From Aurantimicrobium sp. MWH-Uga1 (lineage in GTDB: Bacteria > Actinomycetota > Actinomycetes > Actinomycetales > Microbacteriaceae): a DNA stretch of 64,000 nucleotides. Under the pieces are notes generated by a model. That model was not told the origin of the DNA and searched no databases. It saw only the letters and a list, made by a program, of their open reading frames with translations. The stretch lies in NCBI RefSeq assembly GCF_003325955.1, contig NZ_CP030929.1:248001-312000 (forward strand). The letters are read 5' to 3'. Positions 2,759 to 61,442 of this stretch are shown here, in pieces (the stretch's first letter is position 1; each line of letters starts with the position of its first letter). Made by a program: the position numbers and the translations under genes.

Positions 2759-4039
2759 GTGTCTTCAGATAACACCTTCAACGCCCCGCTCTCCGAGGTT
2801 GACCCCGAGATTGCTGCAGTACTGCAGGATGAGCTCGGCCGTCAGCGCGACTTCCTTGAGATGATCGCTTCCGAGAACTTTGTTCCTCGTGCAGTGCTCG
2901 AATCTCAGGGTTCTGTCTTGACCAACAAGTACGCCGAAGGCTACCCCGGCAAGCGCTACTACGGTGGTTGCGAATTTGTTGACGTCGCTGAAAGCCTCGC
3001 CATTGAGCGTGCAAAGAAGCTCTTTGGTGCTGCGTACGCCAACGTTCAGCCTCACTCTGGCGCTACCGCTAACGCTGCTGTATTGCACGCGATTGCTCAG
3101 CCAGGTGACACCATCCTGGGTCTGGAACTTGCACACGGTGGTCACCTCACCCACGGCATGAAGCTCAACTTCTCCGGCAAGGTCTACAACCCTGTTGCTT
3201 ACGGTGTTGACCCAGAAACGTTCCTGGTCGACATGGATGTCGTGCGCAAGCTCGCTCACGAACACAAGCCTGCCGTGATCATTGCAGGATGGTCTGCCTA
3301 CCCACGCCAGCTCGACTTTGCTGAATTCCGTGCCATCGCCGACGAGGTCGGCGCCAAGCTCTGGGTGGACATGGCTCACTTCGCTGGTTTGGTTGCTGCT
3401 GGTCTGCACCCCAACCCCGTTCCATACGCTGACGTGGTCTCGACCACTGTGCACAAGACCTTGGCAGGTCCTCGCTCCGGTTTGATCCTCAGCCGTGACG
3501 AAGAATTGGCTAAGAAGCTCAACTCTGCCGTGTTCCCTGGTCAGCAGGGTGGTCCACTCATGCACGTCATTGCAGCGAAGGCAACCGCTTTCAAGTTGGC
3601 AATGGAACCTGCATTCAAGGACCGCACTGAGCGCACACTGCGTGGTGCACAGATTATTGCCGACCGCCTTACACAGCCAGACATGAAGGAAGCCGGCGTG
3701 GACGTCCTCACCGGTGGAACTGAAGTTCACCTGGTTCTCGTTGACCTGCGTAACTCTCCACTAGATGGCCAGCAGGCAGAAGATGTACTGCACGCTGCCG
3801 GAATTACCGTGAACCGTAACGCTGTTCCTTTCGACCCACGTCCACCTATGGTGACTTCTGGTCTGCGTATTGGAACTCCTGCCTTGGCTACTCGTGGCTT
3901 CGGCGATGCTGAATTCACCGAGGTCGCAGACATCATTGCTGAGGCGCTCAAGCCCGGTGCAGATGTCTCTGCGCTCAAGGCTCGCGTGAAGGTTCTCACC
4001 GAGAAGTTCCCACTGTACCCAGGCCTCGAGCAGTGGTAG
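2759..4039 (+). CDS. glyA: Serine hydroxymethyltransferase
   Basis: GlyA interconverts serine and glycine, loading THF to 5,10-methylene-THF; it is a cytoplasmic PLP enzyme. The 426-aa product has the family start ([26 protein letters not shown]), the YYGG segment, and the PLP-lysine motif [13 protein letters not shown] near residue 230. The start is a GTG at 2759 with AGGAG at 2749-2753. folD overlaps the last 7 bp, so the two genes form an operon downstream of the ZTP riboswitch. This suits a pathway that raises one-carbon supply when formyl-THF runs short. Confidence 0.97.
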
Positions 4040-56141: not shown

Positions 56142-56284
56142 AGTTTCTCCAGTCTATGGGCCGGGTCATAAGGGTGCGAATGAGCGCGAATAACCGTCGT
56201 GAGTGTCCGTGGGTGGCCAGAAGATGTATTTCACGTAATAAATGAACAAAAAACGATGTGAATATGTGCACAAATGCGGAAAAG

Positions 56285-56293
56285 TTATCCACA
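56285..56293 (+). promoter_or_regulatory. DnaA box in the nrd promoter
   Basis: TTATCCACA is a perfect 9-mer DnaA box, 25 bp upstream of the first NrdR-type box. DnaA control of nrd genes is known in E. coli. A single box could also be chance. Confidence 0.5.
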
Positions 56294-56309
56294 ATTGGGG
56301 ATGACACGC

Positions 56310-56325
56310 CCACAACATGTAGGGG
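56310..56325. promoter_or_regulatory. NrdR box 1 (distal)
   Basis: CCACAACATGTAGGGG matches the NrdR consensus ACACWAWATATWGTGT at 11 of 16 positions and is 32 bp (three helical turns) from the second box, the usual spacing of paired sites. Confidence 0.6.
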
Positions 56326-56341
56326 ATTCATTTTCGAGCCA

Positions 56342-56357
56342 ACCCCTTATATAGTGG
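56342..56357. promoter_or_regulatory. NrdR box 2 (proximal)
   Basis: ACCCCTTATATAGTGG matches the NrdR consensus at 12 of 16 positions, including the core TATATAGTG. Together with box 1 it predicts repression by the ATP/dATP-sensing NrdR protein. Confidence 0.65.
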
Positions 56358-56401
56358 TCAAGCACCTAGAGCAGAAAATTTACGAGGAAGAGACAACAGA
56401 C

Positions 56402-58900
56402 GTGGGAATCACTGTCGTTAAGCGCAATGGACAGCGCGAACAGTATGACGCCAACAAGATCAACATGGCGATTGAAGAGGCAACTCATGGCCTGCACGAC
56501 AACATTGCGTGGGTGACCCAGATTGCAACCGAACTCGAAATCACCCTGTTTGATGGCATCACCACTCAGCAACTTGACGAAGCAGTCATCCAGGTTGCTC
56601 TGCAGAACGTCAAAGATGACCCTGCATTCGACGTTGTAGCTGCCCGTCTGCTGCTCAAGACCATCTACAAGCGTGTTCTCGGAGACTTCTCTACCCCCGA
56701 ACAGCTCAAGAAGCTACACCGCGATCACTTCGCAGAGAACATGAAGCGTGGCGTCGAGGAAGGTCTGCTTGACCCTCGACTGGCTGAACTGTTCGACCTC
56801 GACGCACTCGCGGCTGAGATTGACCCCAGCCACGATGACCTGCTCAAGTACATCGGTGTTGTTACCCTCAACAACCGCTACGCCATCAAGGGCCGCAACG
56901 GTGACCCTCTTGAGGTTCCTCAGTACTTCTGGATGCGTATCTCCATGGGTCTGTCTCTCAACGAGAAGAACCCCACCGAGCACGCCATCAAGTTCTACAA
57001 CAAGATGAGCCAGCTTGAGTACCTTGCAGCTGGATCTACTCTGGTGAACGCCGGAACCATCTACCCACAGCTTGCTAACTGCTTCGTTCTTGAAATGCAG
57101 GACGACATGGAGCACATCGCGAAGACCACGCGCGACGTCATGTGGCTTACCAAGGGAACCGGTGGTATTGGTCTGTCCGTAACCAAGTTGCGTGCGCAGG
57201 GTTCCCCCATCCGCTCGAACAACACCACCTCGACCGGCCCTATTCCTTTCATGCACACGCTGGACTCGATCCTGCGTGCGGTGAGCCGTGGTGGTAAGAA
57301 GTTCGGTGCGATGTGCTTCTACATGGAAAACTGGCACCTCGATTTCCCCGAGTTCCTTGACCTGCGCCAGAACTCTGGTGACCCCTACCGTCGTACCCGT
57401 ACCGCAAACACTGCTGTGTGGATCTCCGACGAGTTCATGAAGCGTGTTCAGAACGACGACGACTGGTACCTCTTCGACCCACTCGAGGTAACTGACCTCA
57501 ACGAGCTCTACGGTAAGGCGTTCTCTGAGCGCTACAACTACTACGTAGCCGAGGCAGAAGCCGGCCGGATGAACCTCTACAAGAAGATCGGTGCTCGCGA
57601 GCAGTTCAAGCAGATCCTGATCTCTCTCCAGTCCACCAGCCACCCCTGGCTGACGTGGAAGGACACCATCAACCTCCGTGCCCTCAACAACAACACCGGA
57701 ACCATCCACTCCTCCAACCTGTGCACCGAAATTACGCTGCCACAGGACGAGGACAACGTCTCGGTATGTAACCTCGCCTCGATCAACCTCTCCCGTCACC
57801 TCACCGACGAGAACACCGTTGACTTTGCCAAGCTGGCCGAAAGCGCCAAGCTTGCTGTGCGCCAGCTCGACAACCTGATCGACATCACACGCTCGTCAGT
57901 GGAAGAGGCAGACTTCTCCAACAAGGAAAACCGTGCCATCGGTCTGGGTCTCATGGGCTTCACCGACATCGTGGAGCGTATGGGTTACTCCTACGAGTCC
58001 GAAGAGGCCTACGACCTCATCGACGTCATCACCGAGCACATCTCTTATGCAGCAATCGAAGCATCGGTTGAGCTTGCACAGGAGCGTGGCGCCTACAGCA
58101 ACTTCGAAGGAAGCCGCTGGTCACAGGGTCTCGTACCTTTCGACAGCATCGACCTCACCGAAGCAGACCGTGGTGTCCCCATCACCGTCAACCGCAAGAC
58201 CACCCTGGACTGGGATGCACTGCGGAAGAAGGTCAAGGGTGGCGTTCGCAACGCAACCCTGATGGCTATTGCTCCCACCGCATCCATCGGTCTTGTTGCC
58301 GGAACCACCCCAGGTCTGGACCCCCAGTTCTCACAGATCTTCAGCCGTGCAACCAGTTCGGGCAAGTTCCTTGAGGTCAACCGCAACCTCGTTGCAGACC
58401 TCCAGAAGCTCGGAATCTGGGAGACCGTCCGTGAAGACCTGCTGCGTAACCAGGGTGACGTACAGAACCTTCCTCAGATTCCCGACCACATCAAGGCTGT
58501 TTACAAGACCAGCTTCCAGCTCTCGCCCTTCTCCTTCCTTGAGGTTGCCGCGCGTGCACAGAAGTGGATCGACCAGGCCATCAGCCGCAACATGTATCTG
58601 GAAACTCGTGACCTCGGCGACATGATGGAGATTTACTCCGAAGCATGGAACCGTGGCGTGAAGACCACCTACTACCTGCACATGAAGCCACGTCACACGG
58701 CCGAGCAGTCCACCGTCAAGGTGAACAAGGCAGAAGACATCAACGCCAGTGGTGGACCCAAGAAGGGCTTCGGCTTCGGTAGTGGTTCCGGTGCAAACCC
58801 AGAACCACACGCAGTCTCCGCTGTTGCAGAAGCAGAACCTGCTGTCGCTGCCCCTGCACGTAAAGGCTTCGGATTCGGCGCATCGGGAGGTGGAAACTAA
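56402..58900 (+). CDS. nrdA: Ribonucleoside-diphosphate reductase alpha subunit
   Basis: The 832-aa catalytic subunit has one N-terminal ATP-cone (residues about 3-92: VVKRNGQREQYDANKINMAIEEA) that senses ATP/dATP, then the ten-stranded barrel with LANCFVLEM (first active-site Cys), NLCTEITLP (thiyl-radical Cys), VCNLASINLS (second pair Cys) and TTYYLHMKPRH (radical-transfer tyrosines). GTG at 56402 is chosen: GAGGAAGAG lies 9 nt upstream and the family N-terminus starts there. The C-terminus is a Gly/Phe/Ala-rich linker (KKGFGFGSGSG, RKGFGFGASGGGN) with no cysteine; the redox tail appears in the next small ORF. Confidence 0.93.
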   Translation: MGITVVKRNGQREQYDANKINMAIEEATHGLHDNIAWVTQIATELEITLFDGITTQQLDEAVIQVALQNVKDDPAFDVVAARLLLKTIYKRVLGDFSTPEQLKKLHRDHFAENMKRGVEEGLLDPRLAELFDLDALAAEIDPSHDDLLKYIGVVTLNNRYAIKGRNGDPLEVPQYFWMRISMGLSLNEKNPTEHAIKFYNKMSQLEYLAAGSTLVNAGTIYPQLANCFVLEMQDDMEHIAKTTRDVMWLTKGTGGIGLSVTKLRAQGSPIRSNNTTSTGPIPFMHTLDSILRAVSRGGKKFGAMCFYMENWHLDFPEFLDLRQNSGDPYRRTRTANTAVWISDEFMKRVQNDDDWYLFDPLEVTDLNELYGKAFSERYNYYVAEAEAGRMNLYKKIGAREQFKQILISLQSTSHPWLTWKDTINLRALNNNTGTIHSSNLCTEITLPQDEDNVSVCNLASINLSRHLTDENTVDFAKLAESAKLAVRQLDNLIDITRSSVEEADFSNKENRAIGLGLMGFTDIVERMGYSYESEEAYDLIDVITEHISYAAIEASVELAQERGAYSNFEGSRWSQGLVPFDSIDLTEADRGVPITVNRKTTLDWDALRKKVKGGVRNATLMAIAPTASIGLVAGTTPGLDPQFSQIFSRATSSGKFLEVNRNLVADLQKLGIWETVREDLLRNQGDVQNLPQIPDHIKAVYKTSFQLSPFSFLEVAARAQKWIDQAISRNMYLETRDLGDMMEIYSEAWNRGVKTTYYLHMKPRHTAEQSTVKVNKAEDINASGGPKKGFGFGSGSGANPEPHAVSAVAEAEPAVAAPARKGFGFGASGGGN

Positions 58901-58980
58901 TGAACTACACAACCCCCGTAGACGAGTACTTCGTTCCCGTCGACCCGATGGATGAACTTCAGTGCGAGTCCTGCCAGTAG
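58900..58980 (+). CDS. Detached C-terminal thiol tail of the RNR alpha subunit
   Basis: The nrdA stop TAA shares its last A with an ATG (TAATG) opening a 26-codon ORF that ends DPMDELQCESCQ. A C-terminal CxxC reduces the RNR active site in alpha subunits, and the preceding protein lacks one. The ORF is in the -1 frame relative to nrdA. It could be (a) a separate peptide made by coupled reinitiation, (b) reached by a -1 frameshift near GGAAAC, or (c) the result of a one-base sequencing or real deletion in an otherwise continuous gene. Conserved-looking acidic linker DEYFVPVD supports coding. Confidence 0.72.
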   Translation: MNYTTPVDEYFVPVDPMDELQCESCQ

Positions 58981-59123
58981 GCAAATCGCTCTGATCCACA
59001 GACACCCCTGCAACACCTGCACCATCTGTAACAACCCCGCCGCACCCCACTAGGGCACCCGCTCTAGAAAAACGGGACACTACAGAAACACCACACTTTT
59101 ACGACGAACTAAGGAGAAACACC

Positions 59124-60104
59124 ATGGGTATTCTCGGTACCGGAGTCCAGGATGGACTCATGCTTAAGCCCGTCACCTACAAGTGGGCGATGGACCTTTA
59201 CGACCAGGCAGTAGCAAACACCTGGTTCCCCAACGAAATTCAGCTCGGTGAAGACATCGCTGACTTCAAGAAGATGACGGATGAAGAACGTCACGCCATC
59301 ACCTTCTTGATGAGCTACTTCAACCCCAACGAGCTGCTTGTGAACAAGGCACTCGCCTTCGGCGTGTACCCCTACGTCAAGGCTCCCGAGGCTCACCTCT
59401 ACCTCGCGAAGCAGATGTGGGAAGAAGCAAACCACTGCATGAGCTTTGAGTACGTGCTCGAAACCTTCCCCATTGACCGTGAGATTGCCTACAGCTCTCA
59501 CGTCAAGGTGCCTTCCATGGCTCGCAAGGAAGAATTCGAAGTCAAGTTCATCAAGCGCATGACCGAGCAGACTCTCGACATCACCACCACCGAGGGCAAG
59601 AAGGACTTCGTTCGCAACCTCGTTGCCTACAACGTCATCCTCGAGGGAATCTGGTTCTACTCCGGCTTCATGGTTGCGCTGAGCTTCCGCCAGCGCAACC
59701 TGCTGCGTAACTTCGGATCTCTCATGGACTGGGTCGTTCGCGACGAGTCTCTTCACCTCAAGTTCGGAATCAACCTGATTCTGACTGTTCTCGAAGAGAA
59801 CCCAGACCTGCAGACCCCCGAGTTCGCAGAAGAAATCCGCAACATGATTCTCAACGCTGTTGAGATGGAAGAGGAATACAACCGTGACCTCCTCCCCAAC
59901 GGCATCTTGGGTCTGAACTCAAACTACATCAACCAGTACGTGAAGTACCTGGCTGACCGTCGTCTCGAGGAGCTCGGTTTCGAGGCCCACTACAAGGTCT
60001 CCAACCCTGCAAAGTGGATGGCAACCGCCAACGACACTTTGCAGCTGGTCAACTTCTTCGAGTCGACCAACACAAGCTACGAGTCCAACGGCGCAACCGC
60101 CTAA
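59124..60104 (+). CDS. nrdB: Ribonucleoside-diphosphate reductase beta subunit, class Ic-like
   Basis: The 326-aa ferritin-like subunit carries the dinuclear metal site: Glu70, Glu101, His104, Glu174, Glu208, His211, with spacings (31, 3 and 34) identical to E. coli R2. The residue at the radical position, seven after Glu101, is Phe108 instead of Tyr, and the first ligand is Glu rather than Asp; Tyr110 matches the auxiliary Tyr129 of Chlamydia trachomatis. These are the markers of class Ic enzymes, which use a Mn(IV)/Fe(III) cofactor instead of a tyrosyl radical. AAGGAG precedes the ATG. The 143-bp gap after the tail ORF shows no further gene. Confidence 0.93.
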   Translation: MGILGTGVQDGLMLKPVTYKWAMDLYDQAVANTWFPNEIQLGEDIADFKKMTDEERHAITFLMSYFNPNELLVNKALAFGVYPYVKAPEAHLYLAKQMWEEANHCMSFEYVLETFPIDREIAYSSHVKVPSMARKEEFEVKFIKRMTEQTLDITTTEGKKDFVRNLVAYNVILEGIWFYSGFMVALSFRQRNLLRNFGSLMDWVVRDESLHLKFGINLILTVLEENPDLQTPEFAEEIRNMILNAVEMEEEYNRDLLPNGILGLNSNYINQYVKYLADRRLEELGFEAHYKVSNPAKWMATANDTLQLVNFFESTNTSYESNGATA

Positions 60105-60120
60105 ATACTCGAACAGAGTT

Positions 60121-60153
60121 AAGGGCCTTCCTGATTACAGGAGGGCCCTTTTC
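60121..60153 (+). terminator. Terminator after nrdB
   Basis: AAGGGCCTTCCT pairs with AGGAGGGCCCTT (12 bp, one G-U) around GATTAC, followed by TTCTG. Confidence 0.88.
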
Positions 60154-60203
60154 TGTACACCAAAAAGGCGACAATCCCTAGAATTTTTGTCTAGACTATT
60201 TGT

Positions 60204-61442
60204 ATGCAAAAGTTTTCACTCAAAGCGCTTAGCGCCGCTTTTTTGACACTGGGTCTTGTTGTTGCTGGTCTAGCTGCACCGGCTCATGCAGCTGCTGGAA
60301 TAACCATGATCACCAATCCAGTTCCGACGTTTGATGCAAGTACAGCGAGTCCTGCGTTCGAAGTAAAGATTGACAATGGTGGGACTGCTTTCGTTGATGA
60401 CGGAAGTCCTAGCGCAGGACAGATAACAATAGAGGTTAGAGGAACCGGTTCCGCCACTGGGATGTGGAGCCTCCCAAGCGGATGTGCAACAAGCTTCACT
60501 GCATTTGCGTCATCAAACTGTGGCATCCTCTCAATCACAGGGACTGGTATAGGTACACCCGTTGTGAAAAAAGATATATCTCAACTAGTAATCAAAGGTC
60601 TGGGAACCGCAACTTCGATCAATATTCAGTTTGCAGCAAGTGCATATCAAGTTGCAGCTAGCGGAGGTACCTATAACTTCAAAGCAATTACAGGTCCAGG
60701 ATTCATGCCAGTAGAGTACATACTTCCAATTACTGTGAATTCTGCGCCGCCACCTGCAACGTACACAGTCACTTTTGACTCAAATGGCGGAACAGGAACA
60801 ATGTCGAATCAAACCAATGGTGGTTTTGGTCCCTTGAACAACAATACTTTTGTTAAGTCGGGAACCACTTTCAGGGGCTGGTCAACTACATGTAATGGTT
60901 CTTTAGTTTATGCAAACAGGGCTATGTACAATTTCTCTGCAAATGCAACACTTTATGCAGTTTGGGCTGACGGCTCAAATGCGTGTGGCGGTGGAGGAGG
61001 AGCCCCATCATCAGCGAGTGTGAACCTTACTTTGAATGCAACTACTGGACAGCTTGTGGCAGGCTCGACTGTTGCTATCGCTGCTAGCGGTTTGCAATCA
61101 ACTGCTGCATATTCACTTGTTGTTCAGTCAACGCCCCAGACTATAGGTTCTGGAAATGCAACTGCGGGTGCTGTGAACACCTCTGTGACTCTTCCCACTG
61201 GCCTTGAGGCAGGTTGGCACACACTGACATTCTCTTCAACAGCTGCCGATGGTTCTGCTGTTACCAGTGTGACCTATTTCAAGGTCTCAGCTTCGGGAAC
61301 ATTGCTTGCCACATCAAGCACGATTCCTGCTGAGCTCGCTCAGACTGGTTTTGACGCAGCGCCTTACCTCTTCGGAGGCCTTGCGCTTGCCTTAGTTGGT
61401 GGTGCGCTCATGCTGATTGCTCGTCGTAAGCAGAGTAACTAG
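60204..61442 (+). CDS. Wall-anchored surface protein with InlB-type repeat
   Basis: The 412-aa precursor has a signal peptide (ending APAHA-AA), a beta-rich N-terminal domain, one InlB B-repeat/Listeria-Bacteroides module (TVTFDSNGGTGTMSNQ ... FRGWSTTCNGS ... NATLYAVWA), a Gly linker, an Ig-like domain and a C-terminal sorting signal LAQTG, hydrophobic helix, RRKQSN. LAxTG is typical of class E sortase substrates in actinobacteria. TAGACT ends 6 nt before the ATG at 60204. The N-terminal half is more AT-rich than its neighbours, a possible sign of rapid exchange. Confidence 0.85.
   Translation: MQKFSLKALSAAFLTLGLVVAGLAAPAHAAAGITMITNPVPTFDASTASPAFEVKIDNGGTAFVDDGSPSAGQITIEVRGTGSATGMWSLPSGCATSFTAFASSNCGILSITGTGIGTPVVKKDISQLVIKGLGTATSINIQFAASAYQVAASGGTYNFKAITGPGFMPVEYILPITVNSAPPPATYTVTFDSNGGTGTMSNQTNGGFGPLNNNTFVKSGTTFRGWSTTCNGSLVYANRAMYNFSANATLYAVWADGSNACGGGGGAPSSASVNLTLNATTGQLVAGSTVAIAASGLQSTAAYSLVVQSTPQTIGSGNATAGAVNTSVTLPTGLEAGWHTLTFSSTAADGSAVTSVTYFKVSASGTLLATSSTIPAELAQTGFDAAPYLFGGLALALVGGALMLIARRKQSN

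Follow-up and report, generated by a model that had tools for sequence, protein, structure and literature searches.

A candidate free redox tail of class I ribonucleotide reductase, encoded by genes of about 26 codons in Microbacteriaceae and carried by plasmids and phages

The 64,000-nucleotide (nt) stretch of Aurantimicrobium sp. MWH-Uga1 analyzed here (NZ_CP030929.1, positions 248,001–312,000; hereafter the window) carries nrdA and nrdB, coding for the alpha and beta subunits of a class I ribonucleotide reductase (RNR), and between them a short open reading frame (ORF) resembling the redox tail that NrdA itself lacks (Table 1). In class I alpha subunits, an active-site disulfide formed at each turnover is passed to a C-terminal cysteine pair, which is in turn reduced by thioredoxin or glutaredoxin (PMC3618301). 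The nrdA ORF spans 56258–58900, with the GTG at 56402 as its probable start (the alignment with many relatives starts no earlier than residue 49 of the long ORF), and the resulting protein of 832 amino acids (aa) ends in ...RKGFGFGASGGGN. Its only cysteines are residues 227, 305, 441 and 456, with none thereafter, and the 26-codon ORF behind it, MNYTTPVDEYFVPVDPMDELQCESCQ, closes with CESCQ and starts on an ATG whose first base is the last base of the nrdA stop (TAATG). A first-pass annotation, made from the letters alone, had pointed to both the cysteine-free end and the overlapping short ORF, and residue counts and direct reading agree with it; the -1 frame it gave for the tail is right in the window and fails as a general rule, as the frame varies among relatives. 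A C..C ending is by itself not rare, because C..C with 0–3 further residues closes 35 of the 4097 stop-to-stop frames in the window, and the 26-aa peptide has no match to a Pfam or NCBIfam model, those of redoxin domains included. The peptide can be taken to be beyond chance because 74 of 80 related loci have it behind nrdA and the pooled ratio of nonsynonymous to synonymous change (pN/pS) is 0.42 over 97 unique linked copies. From these and the following comparisons, it appears that in the Microbacteriaceae of soil and freshwater the RNR redox tail probably works as a free peptide made from its own genes of about 26 codons.

Table 1. Features of the nrdA–nrdB locus in the window, and the second tail copy of the same genome
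Feature	Position	Strand	Basis or remark
NrdR-type box 1, nrdA promoter, CCACAACATGTAGGGG	56310..56325	+	window's best double-box score (model trained on relatives' nrdA promoters)
NrdR-type box 2, nrdA promoter, CCCCTTATATAGTGGT	56343..56358	+	33 nt downstream of box 1
nrdA, class I RNR alpha subunit, 832 aa	56402..58900	+	NF005101/PRK06539, ATP-cone and RNR domains
GGGAGG, Shine-Dalgarno-like, within nrdA end	58885..58890	+	9 nt before tail ATG; presumed function
Candidate detached redox tail, 26 aa, MNYTTPVDEYFVPVDPMDELQCESCQ	58900..58980	+	ORF reading and comparison with relatives
nrdB, RNR beta subunit, 326 aa	59124..60104	+	PF00268, 251 bits
Second, solitary tail copy, own genome, L112 (G000:C1:1399000-1405000)	frame 2997-3143	minus	profile match 1,401,999-1,402,064, NrdR-type double box

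The NrdA of the window scores 1598.5 bits against NF005101 (PRK06539; cut-off 988) and exceeds the cut-offs of PF03477, PF00317, PF02867 and the class I model TIGR02506, and its 385.1 bits against the class II (NrdJ) model TIGR02504 fall below the cut-off of 399.95, which places it outside class II. The three active-site cysteines of the protein, found in LANCFVL, SSNLCTEI and VSVCNL, match cysteine positions in an alignment with 5im3, which we take to be the NrdA of P. aeruginosa, presuming likewise which of its cysteines are catalytic. In family model, active-site cysteines and neighboring beta gene the protein is thus a class I alpha subunit that lacks the C-terminal cysteine pair on its own chain; the genomic evidence places a candidate redox pair on a separately encoded polypeptide, as in a split RNR. 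The genome, a single 1.6-Mb contig that is 99.99% complete, codes for one PF02867 protein. A consensus scan of 58600–60250 found no terminator-like site.

Eighty related loci were fetched by NrdA similarity: in 74 a cysteine-less nrdA end is followed by a separate tail, three (L086, L089, L095) have no tail there, and three are uninformative where the anchor or contig ends. The closest named loci are from Aurantimicrobium, and the TAATG junction is unchanged across the eight genomes of that genus that were compared, MWH-Uga1 included (L002–L009). Split and fused states were judged on sequence because shifted frames overlapping nrdA can stay open for 500–900 codons (L121, L122, L124–L126), making open-frame length a misleading marker within the family; L017, in which the nrdA end reads into another frame with a tail near by, was left out of one split/fused count. 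From these loci and those found by genome profile searches, 97 unique linked copies were drawn, which occupy all three frames relative to the nrdA stop (85, 9 and 3 copies), end 62–180 nt past it and, with the starts as chosen by the analyst, code for 21–41 aa in 93 of the 97. The search pattern demanded two cysteines, one P and one D; though neither was demanded, every one of the 97 also has the Met of D-P-M and the final Gln. A Ser separates the cysteines in 98%, and the N-terminal half is variable. The pN/pS ratios, here and below, are descriptive, as sequence pairs are phylogenetically non-independent. At the end of NrdA itself, KGFG/RGFG repeats (window 58750–58895) recur in nearly all relatives despite the detached tail, and may serve a role besides tethering.

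A 22-position tail profile was positive in 136 of 299 family genomes, the majority of which gave at least two matches, and among the matches listed at least 55 are linked to nrdA and at least 95 unlinked. The solitary copy of MWH-Uga1 lies 1.1 Mb from nrdA along the contig, or 0.5 Mb the other way if the contig is circular; its 28-codon ORF, MEFESNDTVGGYAVPVDPMDLLQCDSCQ, has GGAGG ahead of the ATG and one promoter-like site (ATGACA-18-TATAGT, against 0.4 expected from shuffled sequence), and downstream of it lies a hairpin (-29 kcal/mol) with TTTCGTT behind it. Ahead of such genes stand two sites like the NrdR box, for which the consensus acaCwAtATaTwGtg has been given (PMC4009431): a regular expression finds the double box in 73 of 78 unique solitary copies. 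These 73 have 25–28 codons, 71 with ATG starts and 72 with Shine-Dalgarno matches of at least 4 nt, the starts having been picked for the best such match; pN/pS is 0.19 for all 78 and 0.17 for the 73, and all 78 have the final Gln although the pattern left it free. A double-box model was trained on 66 of 80 nrdA promoters, namely those with a clear box by the analyst's consensus. Measured against 828 control windows, 73 of 79 solitary rows score beyond the 99th percentile by this model and the best of 15 linked rows falls short of it; the six low scorers among the solitary rows are L127 and L238 (the same locus retrieved twice), L230, L241, L245 and L255. Four controls outscore nearly all solitary rows, and these, coming from upstream of nrdA in L076 and L088, are promoters in the wrong bin, because nrdA begins early in both stretches and the controls lie upstream of it. 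The next-best control (-11.7) lies under all 73 rows, which without the four misbinned ones exceed every control. The genome encodes NrdR (TIGR00244 over cut-off) and its nrdA boxes are 33 nt apart, so that two boxes at fixed spacing and the regulator itself are present, as in an NrdR regulon; the box-like sites may place the tail gene under NrdR control as well. Since a dehydratase-like neighbor (PF13452; MaoC-like) is common to 55 of the 79 solitary stretches, the solitary gene seems to have been mainly inherited in place. In L127/L238 (G105:C1:787718-787774) the tail motif closes a frame of 107 aa (from ATG; ...PEGEYIVPVDPMDDLQCDSCQ) with no double box, perhaps a tail fused to another protein.

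The linked copy is more variable than the solitary one (pN/pS of 0.42 vs 0.19) and is missing behind nrdA in several genomes, both of which would be expected if it were a decaying relic and only the solitary gene worked. Against this, the linked C-terminal motif is nearly as constant as the solitary one, and G019, G133 and G190 (82%, 97% and 91% complete) show one match each, a linked one; we therefore regard a relic as unlikely.

Outside Microbacteriaceae the tail was matched in 23 of 297 genomes drawn from the order and 16 of 345 drawn from the class, once in each, and in frames of 458–1153 aa bar one of 63 aa. Among the 41 outside-family rows (L020 and L147 are one gene), 40 are long frames with NrdA marks that end in ...CPxDPxExLxCxxCQ, and the 41st (L384, at 63 aa) seems to be the end of a fused NrdA, truncated where its stretch stops. 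Because the related enzymes of other families carry a similar ending on the NrdA chain itself, the fused NrdA looks ancestral and the Microbacteriaceae probably detached its tail. Hence the single continuous frame across the junction, which the first-pass annotation would have taken as refuting a split, does exist, but only in other families of the order and class. Chromosomal detached tails mostly have Y-x-V-P where fused ones have C-P, which is no firm mark of detachment because several viral stand-alone tails (L282, L283, L286) also have C-P.

The presence of the tail tracks that of the enzyme. An NrdA of the PRK06539 type, scored at E <= 1e-100, occurs in 130 of the 299 family genomes; a tail is present in every one of these, and in six of the 169 genomes without NrdA. 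Five of these six are 77–94% complete and belong to genera with NrdA in other members; the sixth, G169, is weak (27 bits, a 16-aa frame), and was counted among the 136, yet has no tail by pattern in its stretch L169. An alternative role for the peptide would be that of a regulator, assembly factor or inhibitor of RNR, with another thiol reducing NrdA directly, and an inhibitor, like a helper, could indeed benefit phages. It is made improbable by the resemblance of the peptide ending to the covalent tail of fused relatives, by the undemanded final Gln in all 78 solitary and 97 linked copies (the cysteines were demanded), and by the finding that none of the 130 NrdA genomes lacks a tail.

Six genomes (G022, G083, G152, G205, G252, G324) have one PF02867 protein each and a tail elsewhere, with none behind nrdA. 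Thus, G022, a single contig of 0.9 Mb that is 98% complete, separates nrdA from nrdB by a tail-free gap of 95 nt and has its one tail 33 kb off under box-like sites, and the gaps of the others, likewise tail-free, measure 5 nt (G152 and G252), 54 nt (G205), 58 nt (G083) and 198 nt (L086/G324). G152 has two tails elsewhere among the genome matches; weak second or third hits (22 bits) in G324 and G152 were left aside, and the PF02867 protein of G252 is a contig-end fragment. A viral contig of 95 kb (L324/L397; IMGVR_UViG_3300010885_033832) has the order tail, nrdA, nrdB; its nrdA holds an insertion of about 300 codons, perhaps an intein, and the NrdA, too, ends without cysteine. In these unlinked-only genomes and the tail-first virus, therefore, no fusion can arise by frameshifting at the nrdA stop.

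These observations bear on the three explanations that the first-pass annotation had left side by side: a tail acting in trans as a tiny redox peptide, which the comparative data favor, joining by -1 frameshifting, and a one-base error or mutation splitting a normal gene. If programmed -1 frameshifting or stop read-through joined the tail to NrdA, the outcome would be a normal fused enzyme, and it is true that 85 of the 97 linked copies share one relative frame and nine are in frame behind a stop. However, TAATG and ATGA overlaps yield the shared frame by themselves, the distance from the nrdA stop to the tail end ranges over 62–180 nt in three frames, and neither a tail ahead of nrdA nor one at another site of the genome could be joined in this way, which renders the idea very unlikely. 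A sequencing error or pseudogene, suggested by a one-base overlap such as an indel could create, is hardly credible for a junction that is identical in eight genomes of the genus, split in 74 of 80 loci, and followed by a short ORF under purifying selection.

Tails also occur on mobile replicons. Searches by tblastn with the solitary peptide at a loose limit returned 19 plasmid records from Clavibacter, Leifsonia and Gryllotalpicola (E 4e-5 to 4e-2) and six phage records from four phages (E 8e-4 to 3); the four phage frames, despite weak E-values, read as stand-alone tails ending in CTSCQ, CDSCQ, CESCQ and CEGCQ. A degenerate DNA pattern matched at least 120 viral stretches, of which, among those listed, 117 are closed frames of less than 130 aa (e.g., MENENVNGYAVPQDPMDLLQCDSCQ), two are cut by the contig end and one is a 148-aa frame, with at least 61 distinct endings over the last 15 residues; a codon-reversed decoy of the pattern had no viral match. 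An RNR alpha domain is absent from 25 of 26 larger tail-bearing records (22 viral contigs, many of which may be fragments, and four isolate phages). The neighbors, in clusters named from scans of their representatives only, are of the late phage type: upstream of 104 viral copies the two largest clusters, of 31 each, have representatives matching holin and the terminase large subunit, and downstream of 88 copies the representative of the largest cluster (26) is a portal protein. Because the copies sit among late genes without RNR, service to the host NrdA is suggested, with an inhibitory role as a further option for the phage copies. The solitary peptide and three viral tails have no match in PHROGs, and in annotated phage and plasmid records the tails lie in unannotated DNA or are called 'hypothetical protein', with two other names. 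A 33-aa tail of a Leifsonia sp. ZF2019 plasmid (L176 4962-5063; WP_223361114.1) is named 'ribonucleotide-diphosphate reductase subunit beta', apparently a misannotation. Pseudanabaena phage Pan2, whose stated host is a cyanobacterium, has an annotated 27-codon ORF (Pan2_27; L174 4993-5076) with the tail-like ending GFACPNDPADLVSCESCQ.

Taken together, these patterns are best accounted for by a free dithiol micropeptide, derived from a fused tail, that would re-reduce the NrdA active site in trans and that plasmids and phages would have borrowed, a reading to which we assign a probability of roughly 0.85. NrdA of this type in Microbacteriaceae would have lost its covalent redox tail, and the tail would be translated as a separate short peptide from two sources in most genomes, the ORF between nrdA and nrdB and the solitary gene of 25–28 codons under the NrdR double box. 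The peptide C-terminus, Y-x-V-P-x-D-P-M-D-x-L-x-C-[DE]-S-C-Q, would reach the active site, dock through its Y-x-V-P-x-D-P-M region and reduce the turnover disulfide by thiol exchange, after which the peptide would leave NrdA and be re-reduced by thioredoxin or glutaredoxin. As tails may already act across subunits, a detached one would need only enough affinity or concentration; shared NrdR-type control could balance peptide supply against enzyme, and plasmid and phage copies would support the host NrdA.

Several points weigh on the other side. Translation of the peptide, its binding to NrdA in trans at only 26 aa and its activity are predictions from genomics. A Shine-Dalgarno match of at least 4 nt precedes just 47 of the 97 linked copies, despite starts chosen for the best match; five of the 78 unique solitary copies have no double box; and the hairpin regarded here as the presumed terminator of the solitary gene was not listed by the consensus scan. 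Among the eight unlinked-only genomes, G205 and G252 are just 88% and 86% complete, and G166 and G325 are weaker cases in which a free tail is not shown to suffice, because each holds a second PF02867 protein.

If the proposed free peptide is real, a part of a core enzyme that was thought to need tethering appears to work untethered, and tail docking, the weight of the tether and tail supply as a limit on deoxyribonucleoside triphosphate (dNTP) synthesis become directly testable. Tail genes of about 26 codons are easily missed, so that the NrdA of these bacteria looks defective and its missing part is overlooked; the solitary gene with its NrdR-type boxes and the plasmid and phage copies lie beyond what the letters of the window could show. 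The broader notion, which we lean toward with less assurance, is that the class I tail has become a transferable cofactor, a diffusible dithiol of about 26 residues open to supply by any replicon: by the chromosome from the NrdR-boxed solitary gene, and by phages and plasmids without RNR from stand-alone copies. Were this so, phage and plasmid tails would count among the smallest genes that help the host make dNTPs in an infection, and phage copies serving host NrdA would constitute a new class of very small host-metabolism genes, found only by motif.

Among known systems, NrdH, glutaredoxin and thioredoxin, some of them phage-encoded, are folded dithiol redoxins that feed electrons to RNR; the tail would share with them the supply of dithiols to RNR, and differs in matching no Pfam or NCBIfam model. 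A detached class I RNR tail was not reported in the open-access literature searched, most subscription papers and the collection of bioRxiv lying outside it, so that novelty is provisional. Yeast Rnr1 offers a parallel: a tail reaching into the active site from the neighboring subunit accepts the disulfide and is then itself reduced by glutaredoxin or thioredoxin (PMC3618301), although there the tail stays attached to alpha. Split phage RNR genes have also been described, including NrdA-a/NrdA-b of Aeromonas phage Aeh1 (PMC3653736), in which the gene of a class I alpha subunit is likewise divided in two and the product still functional, but there the split arose in a single phage when a homing endonuclease gene was inserted. 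The closest known case is the class II RNR of P. aeruginosa, split into NrdJa and NrdJb, both needed in vivo, with NrdJb mediating thiol-disulfide exchange; its authors term the proteobacterial NrdJ the only split RNR of a non-viral organism (PMC4520616). It resembles the Microbacteriaceae arrangement in having C-terminal redox cysteines on a separate polypeptide from the same operon. However, it is a cobalamin-dependent class II enzyme whose NrdJb has 229 residues with folded domains (PMC9669993), in contrast to a class I tail of about 26 residues whose genes lie both beside nrdA and apart from it, with NrdR-type boxes ahead of the solitary gene and further copies on plasmids and phages. Thus, neither NrdJa/NrdJb nor the split phage genes represent a free class I tail, and redox cysteines in trans, already known in kind, are here unusual in size, number of loci and spread.

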